NCBI GenBank assembly: GCA_026397175.1
Contig: JAPLVK010000014.1
Span: 1 to 50,341 of the forward strand
DNA from: Candidatus Berkelbacteria bacterium
GTDB taxonomy: Bacteria; Patescibacteriota; UBA1384; DTJR01
Reading direction: 5' to 3'
Length of the DNA: 50,341 nt
Below are positions 4,714 through 44,004 of this stretch, one piece after another (the stretch's first letter is position 1; every line of letters starts with the position of its first letter). A model generated the notes under the pieces. The model searched no databases. It had not been told where the DNA came from and saw nothing but the letters and a program-made list of their open reading frames with translations. Both the position numbers and the translations under genes were made by a program.

Positions 4714-6141
4714 ATGTTTATATTTAATACCCTAACTCGCCAAAAGGAAGAAATTAAGCCGATTGAAGGTGACACGATTCGCATTTATTCCTGCGGTTTG
4801 ACGGTTTATGACTACGCCCATATCGACAATTTGCGCAAATATATTTTCGACGATCTCCTAAAACGCGCACTTATTTACTTTGGCTACAAAGTGAAGCATG
4901 TGATGAATATAACCGATGTCGGGCATCTGACTTCGGATGAAGATGAGGGCGAAGACAAGATCGAAAAAGGGGCAACTCGTGAGGGCAAGTCTGCCTATGA
5001 AATTGCTAAGTTTTATGAAAAGGCATTTGTGGAGGATTTGAAGAAATTAAATATCTTATTGGCCGACGAAATGCCGCGCGCAACAGAAAATATTAAAGAG
5101 CAGATTGATCTTATAAAAAAACTCGAAGAAAAGGGCTTTACATATAAAACATCGGACGGAATTTATTTTGATACTTCAAAATTAAGCGATTATGGCAAAC
5201 TGGCGCGACTCGATATCGAAAATTTAAAAGAGGGGATTCGGGTCGAAAAAAATCCCGAGAAAAAAAACCCAACAGATTTCGCGCTGTGGAAATTGAGCGT
5301 CCCGAAAGGCGGTCATCCTGAGGCGATAGCCGAAGGATCTCCCGCGAATGCGGGCCAATCTGTCATTGCGAGCGGAGCGAAGCAATCTAGGCGCCAAATG
5401 GAATGGCCCTCCCCGTGGGGAGTTGGTTTTCCCGGCTGGCATCTTGAATGCTCGGCGATGTCCACCAAATTTTTAGGTCAGCCGTTTGAAATTCATACCG
5501 GAGGCGTTGATCATATTCCGGTTCACCACACCAACGAAATTGCCCAATCCGAAGCAGCGTTTGATAAACCCCTTGCAAAATATTGGGTTCACAGCGAGCA
5601 TCTTTTGGAAGATGGCCATAAAATGGCCAAATCCGCTGGCCACTTTATTCGCTTGCAGGATTTGGAGGAAAAGGGCTACTCACCGCTCGATTTTAGATAT
5701 CTGTGTCTCTCGGCAAAATACCGCTCAAAGCTAGATTTTTCCTATAAATCTCTCGGTGCTGCCAAAGTCGCCCGCCGCAAAATCAACGACGCCTATAATT
5801 TAGCCAAACCTTCTACCACCAAACTCCACCCGGCGGGTGGAGTTTGGTCAAAGGGTTGTGACCAAGCCCTCTCCGATGATCTCGACACTCCTCGCGCATT
5901 GGCTTTTATCTTTGATAACCTATCAAAATTCTCTAAAGAAAATTTCGAAAAGATGGACGAAGTTCTGGCGATTTTGGAAAAATTCACGGTGCCGGAAGAG
6001 GTTGAAAAGCTTGTGGCGGATCGTCAAAAAGCGCGCGACCAAAAAGATTTCAAGAAATCCGACGAAATCAGATCTCAAATCAAAAAAAAGGGCTTCTTGG
6101 TTGAAGACTCGGTTGGTGGAACAAAAATAATCCGAATTTGA
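4714..6141 (+). CDS. cysS: cysteinyl-tRNA synthetase carrying two repeat insertions
   Basis: Charges tRNA-Cys. The 475-residue protein has the zinc ligand Cys27 (YSCGLTVYD), a HIGH-like motif HIDN (36-39), the conserved GWHLECSAM and HHTNEIAQSEA zinc/active-site segments, and a KMSKS motif in the form HKMAKS (302-307). Two parts look foreign: residues about 200-230 (from GGHPEAIAEG to the VIASGAKQS segment) are encoded by dispersed palindromic repeat sequence inserted between the catalytic segments, and residues about 369-379 (TTKLHPAGGVW) are encoded by a perfect hairpin. Both keep the frame. The rest aligns with ordinary CysRS, so the gene is probably functional. The last codons end at TGA, followed immediately by the next promoter. 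Confidence 0.96.
   Translation: MFIFNTLTRQKEEIKPIEGDTIRIYSCGLTVYDYAHIDNLRKYIFDDLLKRALIYFGYKVKHVMNITDVGHLTSDEDEGEDKIEKGATREGKSAYEIAKFYEKAFVEDLKKLNILLADEMPRATENIKEQIDLIKKLEEKGFTYKTSDGIYFDTSKLSDYGKLARLDIENLKEGIRVEKNPEKKNPTDFALWKLSVPKGGHPEAIAEGSPANAGQSVIASGAKQSRRQMEWPSPWGVGFPGWHLECSAMSTKFLGQPFEIHTGGVDHIPVHHTNEIAQSEAAFDKPLAKYWVHSEHLLEDGHKMAKSAGHFIRLQDLEEKGYSPLDFRYLCLSAKYRSKLDFSYKSLGAAKVARRKINDAYNLAKPSTTKLHPAGGVWSKGCDQALSDDLDTPRALAFIFDNLSKFSKENFEKMDEVLAILEKFTVPEEVEKLVADRQKARDQKDFKKSDEIRSQIKKKGFLVEDSVGGTKIIRI
5311..5388 (+). repeat. dispersed palindromic element inside cysS
   Basis: Three repeat modules in a row: a GGTCATCCTGAG...CGAAGGATCT hairpin (5311-5340), CCCGC GAAT GCGGG (5341-5354) and the module beginning GTCATTGCGAG and ending AAGCAATCT (5362-5388). 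The same modules occur between genes at 6615-6730, 7438-7480 and 14508-14532. Confidence 0.85.
5818..5848 (+). repeat. perfect hairpin inside cysS
   Basis: Two 14-base arms (5818-5831, ACCAAACTCCACCC; 5835-5848) separated by GGC pair perfectly. The 31 bases lie at the junction between the anticodon-binding region and the catalytic domain. Confidence 0.85.
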
Positions 6142-6573: not shown

Positions 6574-6733
6574 CCATCCCGCCTGCCCTGAGCGAGCGAA
6601 GCGAGTCGAATGGGTCATCCCGCATTTAATGCGGGATCCATCAGCATTTGTCATTGCGACCCCGGACTTGATCCGGGGGAAGCAATTCCTCCCTTGTCAT
6701 TTCGACCGAGTACCCGAGCGGAGAAATCTAAAC
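6574..6733. repeat. cluster of dispersed palindromic repeats
   Basis: This 160-base stretch strings together several modules: CCTGAGCGAGCGAAGCGAGT (6588-6607), ATCCCGCATT/AATGCGGGAT (6617-6637), a CATTGCGACCCCGGA...TCCGGGG...GCAAT hairpin (about 6652-6687) and ATTTCGACCGAG...CGGAGAAAT (about 6699-6727). They occupy most of the space between the coiled-coil gene and the NYN gene. Confidence 0.8.
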
Positions 6734-6768
6734 AAAAATTTACAAGCAACTATTGCTTTGCGTTTTTT

Positions 6769-8897: not shown

Positions 8898-9932
8898 ATG
8901 TTGTTCATAATGAAATTATTTTCTAAGCGTTTGTTTTACGGCGGGTCAGTGTTTATTGTTTTAATCATTTTAATTTCTGGTTTTTTGGTATATCTTTTAG
9001 AATACAAACAAAAAAGCCTAAGCCCCGCAGAAGCTGCGTCTGGTAACAAAACCCTAGATTCTCAACCAGATTGGCAACTAGGATCTTACACCGACAATAT
9101 TGACCTCACAACACTGGCAGGGTCTGTCAAAATACAAAATAATGCCGAGATCAATTTACTGGGAAAAACTACTAGTTCTGATATAAATAACGATCAGGCC
9201 CCAAATGTAATAGATAACGACTATGACACATGGTGGAACGGTTACCTGACTTACGAGGACCAAACTCATTGGTGGAAAATAGATTTGGGTGAAACTAAAA
9301 ATTACATAAGTACATTCGCTCTGTGGAGGACTGCTAGTGGACCTATCACATTTAGACTATATTGGAGTTTAAACGATATCGACTACACTCTCATTCTTCC
9401 AGGTCCAGGTTATGTCTGGGGGCCCTGTAATCTGCCGGCCAGTTGTCAGTCTGTTATCAGCTCTCCCATTAGTGCTCGATATATAAAGATTGTGGCCAAT
9501 AGAGAAGATGGTGTCAGCCCAATGGACCCTCAAATAAAAGAATTCAAACTTTATATGTCGCCTCCCGCCACCCACACCTCCGCCTCTACCCAAATAGACG
9601 GAGGTGATAACTTCTGGCTCTGGCAGACATTTACCCCAACTCAAACAGTTCCGGCAAATACTGCAGTAAGTTATAGATTCAGATCGTCAGCTAATGGAAC
9701 CGATTGGGGTACTTGGAGCGCCTCGCAAACTCCGACATCGGGTAATCCCTTAGATATTTCTGGTCTTGTTACCTCTCGCTCCGGCGATACCAAATACCGC
9801 TATCTCCAAGTCGAAACAACCCTCTCTAACACAGACGGTGCCTCTACTCCAACTGTCGATGCTTATTCCGTCGGCTATCACACCGAAGTCAAACCTAATA
9901 AGCCCGTAGCCCAGACAGCAGTAATACAGTAG
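8898..9932 (+). CDS. membrane-anchored discoidin (F5/8 type C) domain protein
   Basis: A 344-residue surface protein. Residues 12-33 are a hydrophobic signal anchor (YGGSVFIVLIILISGFLVYLL). Residues about 75-215 form an F5/8 type C domain: NVIDNDYDTWWNGY, WWKIDLGETKNYISTFALW, and SARYIKIVANREDGVSP...IKEFKLYM; such domains bind sugars or other surface ligands. Residues 220-335 form a second, probably Ig-like/beta-sandwich module. It ends shortly after the last beta segment with no C-terminal anchor. ATG 8910 is an alternative start. Probably exposed on the cell surface and possibly used in host or cell contact (inference). Confidence 0.85.
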   Translation: MLFIMKLFSKRLFYGGSVFIVLIILISGFLVYLLEYKQKSLSPAEAASGNKTLDSQPDWQLGSYTDNIDLTTLAGSVKIQNNAEINLLGKTTSSDINNDQAPNVIDNDYDTWWNGYLTYEDQTHWWKIDLGETKNYISTFALWRTASGPITFRLYWSLNDIDYTLILPGPGYVWGPCNLPASCQSVISSPISARYIKIVANREDGVSPMDPQIKEFKLYMSPPATHTSASTQIDGGDNFWLWQTFTPTQTVPANTAVSYRFRSSANGTDWGTWSASQTPTSGNPLDISGLVTSRSGDTKYRYLQVETTLSNTDGASTPTVDAYSVGYHTEVKPNKPVAQTAVIQ

Positions 9933-9940
9933 GAGTATTC

Positions 9941-10078
9941 CCTGAACATTTTTAATCACAAACCCAAACAACTGCCGCCATTCCTACGATCGTAGGAATG
10001 GCGGCAGGGGGCTATTTAGGAATAATGGGTAATAAGCGGTGATAAAATGGATCATTAGGGCTTGGCAAAATGTTCAGG
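9941..10078. repeat. nested inverted repeats upstream of the PaaX/Cas2-like gene
   Basis: Outer 12-base arms CCTGAACATTTT (9941-9952) and AAAATGTTCAGG (10067-10078) enclose a perfect 36-bp palindrome at 9972-10007 with half CTGCCGCCATTCCTACGA and centre TACGATCGTA. A related palindrome lies on the other side of the gene. Confidence 0.85.
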
Positions 10079-10103
10079 AACTTAACAAATGGTTTAATAG
10101 ATA

Positions 10104-10685
10104 ATGGGAAACAATATCAAAATTTTGGGATACGAGAAGGAGGCGTTTAAGGAAGTCGCTAAAGCTGTTTTGAGATACGCCATTCTTGGCTTGGTTGTTG
10201 GTATTTTCTTAACTTCCCCGACCGGTTTATCAAAAATTGTTCCGGAGTTGATCAAGCTTCGTAAAAAATATGGCGATAGAGTCGTTGACAAATCACTCAA
10301 TAAAATAGTAAAAGATCGATTTATAAAAATTATCGAGAAAAATGGCGAAACAACTTTGAAAATTACCGAGAAGGGAAAAGTCAGATTGGTGAATTTTAAT
10401 ATAGACACAATCAAGATTCGTGAGTCATGCTGGGATGGGCAGTGGAGATTCGTAATTTTTGATATTCCGGAAAAGAGGCGAATTGCCCGTGATGTATTGC
10501 GTGAAAAATTAAAAGAAATCGGATTCATCCAGATCCAGAAAAGTGTCTGGGCGTGTCCGTATGAATGTGAGGAAGAAATTGATTTTATCGCCTCCGTTTA
10601 TGATGCCGAGCCATATGTCAATTATATTATTGCAAAAAAGATCGATCATGAAAAATACTTAAAATCAAAATTCAACCTGAAATAG
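10104..10685 (+). CDS. PaaX-like protein with Cas2-like C-terminal domain
   Basis: A 193-residue protein. The N-terminal part has one hydrophobic stretch (about 23-42, RYAILGLVVGIFLTSPTGL) followed by a winged-helix-like segment (KSLNKIVKDRFIKI...GETTLKITEKGK). Residues about 110-193 match the ferredoxin-like domain shared by PaaX repressors and Cas2: WDGQWRFVIFDIPEKRRIARDVLREKLKEIGF, with Asp120 in the position of the Cas2 metal ligand. Such proteins are often labelled Cas2 in Patescibacteria although no CRISPR array or cas1 is present; there is none here. The gene stands alone between two related palindromes (9972-10007, 10713-10746). Transcription regulator or nuclease cannot be decided. 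Confidence 0.85.
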   Translation: MGNNIKILGYEKEAFKEVAKAVLRYAILGLVVGIFLTSPTGLSKIVPELIKLRKKYGDRVVDKSLNKIVKDRFIKIIEKNGETTLKITEKGKVRLVNFNIDTIKIRESCWDGQWRFVIFDIPEKRRIARDVLREKLKEIGFIQIQKSVWACPYECEEEIDFIASVYDAEPYVNYIIAKKIDHEKYLKSKFNLK

Positions 10686-10712
10686 TTTTCGAAATAATGT
10701 TTCGATAAAACA

Positions 10713-10746
10713 CTGCCGCTTTTCCCACGATCGTAGGAAAAGCGGC
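10713..10746. repeat. palindrome downstream of the PaaX/Cas2-like gene
   Basis: TGCCGCTTTTCCCACGA pairs with TCGTAGGAAAAGCGGCA with one mismatch. Core CACGATCGTA and arms TGCCGC/GCGGCA match the upstream palindrome; only the middle of each arm differs. Confidence 0.85.
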
Positions 10747-10786
10747 ACAAGCAAGATAGCTGCAAGATTTTTCAACAATCTTTCGG

Positions 10787-43640: not shown

Positions 43641-43843
43641 AATTCCTTTTAGGGTAGGGGACTGGGAGGAAATTTTATTAATAGTGATATTGATTATTTG
43701 AACTCTTTGTTTGAAGTCGTAATTTTTTTAAAACATCTCCGGAAATTAACTGTTAAATTTTTACAATATTATTTTGTTAAAAATTTAGAAACTTCAATTT
43801 AAAAAATACCTAAAACTTATTACTACGCAAAGTTTTGTTTTTG

Positions 43844-43963
43844 TACGATCGTAAATTAACATAAGTGCCATTTAGACAACTCAATTATCCTTTATAGAAT
43901 TTAAATTAGCCGTGGGGCATTACAGCGGCTGCAACAGGTTTGCATTGACAGTGTACGATCGTA
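43844..43963. repeat. paired TACGATCGTA palindromes
   Basis: TACGATCGTA occurs at 43844-43853 and 43954-43963, spaced by 110 bp, both within TGTACGATCGTARATT. The same 10-mer forms the centre of the palindrome at 9985-9994, with a one-base variant at 10726-10735. Confidence 0.8.
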
Positions 43964-44004
43964 GATTTGCTTAATATTTAATCAGAGATTAATCGTGGGA
44001 TCCA

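Follow-up and report, generated by a model that had tools for sequence, protein, structure and literature searches.

The window, that is, the whole stretch of 50,341 nucleotides of Candidatus Berkelbacteria DNA that was analysed, contains a gene for a small protein resembling both PaaX and Cas2, and this gene lies between two palindromes (Table 1). The left palindrome is perfect and was found exactly where the original prediction had placed it. The right one is indeed near-perfect and 34 bp long, but its earlier coordinates were one base low and are corrected here. The two palindromes have in common TTCCYACGATCGTAGGAA and the ends TGCCGC/GCGGCA, so that the shared core and ends that had been described on both sides are borne out by the sequence. 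A 12-bp inverted repeat reported around the left palindrome is also real; however, other 12-bp inverted repeats of similar spacing are present elsewhere in the window, and consequently it is given no weight.

Table 1. Positions in the window of the PaaX/Cas2-like gene and the repeats around it
Feature	Position	Strand	Description	Sequence
Left palindrome	9972..10007	.	perfect, 36 bp, centre CGATCG	CTGCCGCCATTCCTACGATCGTAGGAATGGCGGCAG
Short-form PaaX/Cas2-like gene	10104..10685	+	193 aa	
Right palindrome	10714..10747	.	34 bp, one mismatched pair	TGCCGCTTTTCCCACGATCGTAGGAAAAGCGGCA
12-bp inverted repeat, left arm	9941..9952	+	surrounds left palindrome; probably incidental	
12-bp inverted repeat, right arm	10067..10078	-	surrounds left palindrome; probably incidental	

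Within the window, the 18-bp core of the palindrome is confined to these two sites (number expected with 3 mismatches, 0.05) and, with up to 2 mismatches allowed, it occurs nowhere else in the 1.01-Mb host genome; the palindrome of this unit thus has no solo copy in its own genome. Palindromes of such quality are nevertheless a feature of the host: the stretches sampled for palindrome counts (346 kb in total) hold 32 of them, versus 0-1 per 346 kb of Markov-shuffled host DNA.

Several other features of the window deserve mention. The cysS frame (4714-6141) includes an in-frame insert at 5308-5397 (GGHPEAIAEGSPANAGQSVIASGAKQSRRQ), which resembles a dispersed repeat in translation, and, separately, a 31-bp palindrome at 5818-5848. 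The reading frame of an NYN-domain gene starts in repeat-like DNA (6610-6760; GTCATTGCGACCCCGGACTTGATCCGGGGGAAGCAAT), and consequently its true start is probably further in. A direct repeat starting TGTACGATCGTA is found at 43842-43864 and 43952-43974, 110 bp apart, near a switch in GC skew at ~44 kb. Genes for similar-looking, secreted-protein-like products adjoin two of the host elements; the one in the window (8898-9932) encodes an F5/8 type C domain, and the other (L040:5897-6961) has no Pfam match.

The window protein matches PaaX_M (PF20803, E 6.5e-24), the central Cas2-like domain. Its similarity to Cas2 is weak, scoring 20.1 bits with PF09827 (cut-off 23.8) and 25.1 bits, just over the cut-off of 24.5, with TIGR01573, while its 41.3 bits with the full-length PaaX model TIGR02277 are far below the cut-off of 264.55. 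In an AlphaFold2 model (mean pLDDT 79, pTM 0.56), a helical/winged-helix part (residues 9-97) is followed by a ferredoxin-like Cas2 domain (residues 114-189), after which the protein ends. The top Foldseek match is E. coli PaaX (8a39), with many Cas2 structures next; this placement of the domains is uncertain, since E 0.001 is reached by the first match alone and the TM-scores of whole chains are low, at 0.2-0.4 on query length. A sequence search of the PDB gave only a weak match to TubR. The protein shares with PaaX a winged helix and a Cas2-like domain but lacks the C-terminal domain of true PaaX (193 aa versus a model of 279 positions), and its gene is not beside paa genes. It shares with Cas2 the ferredoxin-like domain, an aspartate ending strand 1, and a Q-x-S-(V/L)-(W/F/Y) motif, but is fused to a winged helix and stays under the Pfam cut-off for Cas2. 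D120, the aspartate typical of Cas2, is conserved in 104/104 short forms of the family versus 8/18 long forms, which mostly have S or N at this position; S147 is likewise invariant in the short forms. The invariance of D120 may be read as the strongest hint that the palindrome-bracketed forms act as enzymes.

Genes matching PF20803 are found in 39 of 61 related genomes, with up to 11 per genome. The host itself has eight, seven short and one long. A strong palindrome is present on at least one side of six of the seven short genes and on both sides of four; around the seventh, all that remains is a 21-bp repeat, centred on CGATCG, to its left and right. The long gene has no flanking palindrome. 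The arms differ from unit to unit, as in TTTGCGCAAATTGTCCGATCGGACAATTTGCGCAAA, CTGCACTTTTGAGACGATCGTCTCAAAAGTGCAG, and TTCGACTAGTTGACGGTCGTCAACTAGTCGAA. Among the 99 unique short-form genes having complete flanks, palindromes are present on both sides of 54 and on one side or more of 85, versus none of 17 long forms on both sides and a background rate of ~6% per 245-bp window. Most other copies of the gene are therefore flanked by palindromes, whose absence would have refuted the original prediction. Phylogenetically, 16 of the 18 long forms cluster in a single supported group; the remaining two are placed among the short forms and probably owe their length to the choice of start codon alone. 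The same arrangement is seen in members from other parts of the phylum. When collections were scanned with single proteins, no relatives were found in viral contigs, and genome contigs yielded one named record (G050, a Berkelbacteria MAG). The viral contigs having the 18-bp core contain no related gene.

The idea that such palindromes might be equally common away from the gene was not borne out. Palindromes with element-type centres are absent from 400 kb sampled from four genomes without a short-form gene; the host, for comparison, has 21 in 346 kb. It could be argued that the arrangement reflects chance or faulty assembly, as assemblers have difficulty with long perfect palindromes and the genomes are mostly draft assemblies. 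However, its recurrence in independent genomes, the near-lack of palindromes in shuffled DNA, and the lack of element-type centres where the gene is missing render this explanation extremely improbable. Taken together, these results provide good support for the gene and its palindromes as a real and general unit. Such a unit had been proposed for the window, and it recurs in dozens of genomes, each time with private, matched palindromes.

The matching is close. Left and right palindromes of a unit are 77% identical versus 41% between units, and a palindrome's own partner is its best match in 58/70 cases, which exceeds the maximum of 20,000 permutations. Within the palindromes, pairing is high 0-3 and 10-17 bp from the dyad, lower at 4-9 bp, and random at distances above 20 bp. 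The choice of sites by palindromicity inflates the mean pairing, but this does not explain the shape of the profile. There are thus two conserved zones: the centre, which is CGATCG in 79 sites, and the outer arms 10-17 bp from the dyad. In centre variants such as CGGTCG, CGATAG, and CTCCAG, the dyad is broken at its very centre. Over all pairs, proteins and palindromes co-vary weakly (Mantel rho 0.13, a value reached in 0/2000 permutations), and the trend is clear only above ~50% protein identity. The units have a median length of 692 bp from end to end, and the centre of the upstream palindrome lies a median of 45 bp before the start codon. At two loci, there are three palindromes in a row with a second, cassette-like gene between the first two: pal-hicBA-pal-PaaX/Cas2-pal (L040:4256-5854) and pal-grpB-pal-PaaX/Cas2-pal (L057:2811-4181). 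As these are the only 2 of 65 loci with an extra matching palindrome around another gene, cargo was rejected as a defining feature.

This geometry brings to mind an autoregulated repressor of the PaaX type, for which the flanking palindromes would be operators and the solo ones a regulon, with nothing mobile. The PaaX family consists of repressors, PaaX acts in this way on its own promoter, and the E. coli PaaX site, TGATTC(N27)GAATCA (39 bp), has the same dyad layout and span as the palindromes here (PMC9493321). The upstream palindrome is also suitably placed ahead of the start codon. However, a matching palindrome directly follows the stop codon as well, and paralogues within one genome each have a different private palindrome. 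Furthermore, it is the long, genuinely PaaX-like forms that do not have palindromes on both sides, and the catalytic-type aspartate is invariant in the bracketed forms only.

The solo palindromes bear on the same question. Ten solo CGATCG-centred palindromes in the sampled host DNA all match a host unit at 67-92%; with random CGATCG palindromes, the 95% level is 64% and the maximum of 300 is 69%, so that the two lowest of the host matches are marginal. One solo palindrome, at L229, is matched slightly better by a foreign unit than by the host's own. Two others, at L040 (12455) and L233 (15610), are identical in their cores although they belong to different contigs, and several lie in convergent intergenic regions (between pnp and pyrB at L043, and at L227 and L228). 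In genome G137, the palindrome of one element is present at both ends of the unit and in four solo copies, two of them identical at 36/36 positions, and there is none in G111 of the same genus. In genome G027, a solo copy lies in frame inside prmC, within a loop of variable length, and is 97% like the palindrome of one element; this stretch is shorter in genomes G035 and G052 and has a different insert in G050. An in-frame palindrome of this kind resembles the Rickettsia palindromic elements, where a protein gene can contain a palindromic repeat and still stay in frame; we know of no cognate gene for those elements. Two perfect palindromes of the host with an element-type inner 36 bp are much longer, 120 bp (L229:15505-15624 = G000:C20:115505-115624) and 80 bp (L043:14546-14625); because the flanks around the inner 36 bp have also become palindromic, fold-back copying is suggested.

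Copies between convergent genes and inside a coding frame argue against a regulon. Thus, of the two roles originally proposed for the protein and its palindromes, a repressor with its operators or a repeat-spreading element, the latter fits better, and a purely regulatory system seems unlikely.

A different proposal is that the palindromes work at the RNA level, as hairpins that frame the transcript (stabilisers, terminators, or RNase processing sites for the Cas2-like domain), with no DNA mobility. Some Cas2 proteins are RNases, and the four central bases are not always self-complementary (GGTC, GATA), which would suit a hairpin loop. However, the winged helix suggests that the protein binds DNA. 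Solo copies are located where transcripts of the gene do not extend, those of the G137 genome have multiplied there in near-identical form, and no Rfam family exceeds its gathering score in the region. This proposal is accordingly quite improbable.

Evidence of movement also comes from the units themselves. Three host elements form one clade but occupy different loci, and the same is true of six elements in G027, two of which are missing from the syntenic DNA of G035. In G046 and G053, units lie at unrelated loci and the homology begins inside the palindrome. Other units have been inherited in place (L223/L127 and L220/L221 are syntenic), and element copies within one genome have diverged; consequently, movement of the whole unit appears to be slow. 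The orthologous unit in two species of one genus (L220:4642-5187 and L221:7734-8327; gene 74% and neighbouring DNA 77-94% identical) has decayed palindromes in one of the two. The target-site duplication that had been hoped for is absent: flanking repeats of 62 units show no excess over permutation. Nor was a clean empty site seen in G027/G035, G111/G137, G046/G053, or the genus of G173 (one genome), where presence and absence are observed only inside larger rearranged stretches. A homing endonuclease was considered and rejected, as the flanking sites are intact and not split by the gene. Overall, the comparisons of sequence and synteny support mobility fairly well.

If the palindromes spread, the agent might instead be a Y1/RAYT transposase encoded elsewhere, which would make them ordinary REPs with the Cas2/PaaX gene merely nearby. 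RAYT-type Y1 genes do exist: 29/55 genomes of the class have them, and the host has two. However, no such palindromes flank the Y1 genes that were examined, each Cas2/PaaX gene is enclosed by a palindrome of its own, and copy numbers do not follow: G027 has 11 PaaX_M genes but 1 weak Y1, and G013 has 4 Y1 genes but neither a short-form gene nor, in 100 kb, an element-type palindrome. The window protein itself has no match to the Y1_Tnp domain (PF01797) in a Pfam search. Such an external transposase is thus very improbable.

These observations have led to another hypothesis, which we consider the probable one. In this model, the palindrome-gene-palindrome unit would be a minimal selfish element of ~0.69 kb, organised like REP-RAYT, whose Cas2/PaaX-fold protein acts on its own palindromes. 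The protein probably binds them as a dimer and cleaves them. Dimerisation would occur via the Cas2-like domain; each outer arm would be contacted by one winged helix, the arrangement supposed for PaaX on its operator, and the Cas2-like dimer would lie over the central CGATCG. The conserved aspartate could then cut or nick the DNA at CGATCG or in an extruded hairpin, and the ends might be copied or joined elsewhere. In this way, solo palindromes would spread in trans and, on occasion, so would complete units, much as is supposed for REP sequences and their RAYT proteins. Binding at the upstream site would also repress the gene's own promoter. On the other side, PaaX itself is a repressor, and cutting would be a putative activity for its family.

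In the REP-RAYT system, a single gene lies between two cognate palindromes; solo cognate copies are dispersed, mostly outside genes, and co-occur with the gene, and the palindrome changes yet stays palindromic (PMC2817692). The bracketing of the gene is common to both systems, as are palindromes that vary yet remain palindromic and the dispersed solo cognate palindromes, although these solo copies are seen here for units other than that of the window. In contrast, the protein here has a Cas2/PaaX fold with a winged helix whereas RAYT is a Y1 HUH transposase, the palindromes are ~36 bp long, usually with a CGATCG centre and without a GTAG head, and there are a handful of copies rather than the hundreds typical of REPs. 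Thus, the organisation is known from REP-RAYT, but the enzyme is unrelated to theirs, and if the Cas2-like domain drives movement, this would be a new class of element. We propose only tentatively, and with some doubt, that it is such a class of transposable element, with a Cas2-fold nuclease working on palindromes and a free-living relative of Cas2 paired with short palindromic repeats; no CRISPR array is present in the window. No earlier description of PaaX/Cas2-like genes with palindromes was found in the library of open-access papers that was searched.

Orphan Cas2/PaaX-like genes are common in Patescibacteria, and matches to models of Cas2 or of the phenylacetate regulator tell nothing of their role. 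If they are selfish units recognising their own palindromes, these genes would parallel REP-RAYT without being homologous to it and would account for the families of dispersed palindromes in these genomes. Since each lineage has its own pair of protein and palindrome, binding specificity is directly testable with dozens of natural pairs. Toxin-antitoxin genes have been proposed as the source of Cas2 (PMC3150331). A Cas2-fold protein at work with palindromic repeats outside CRISPR would bear on the origin of Cas2 and, if confirmed, would provide a concrete alternative to its origin from a toxin.
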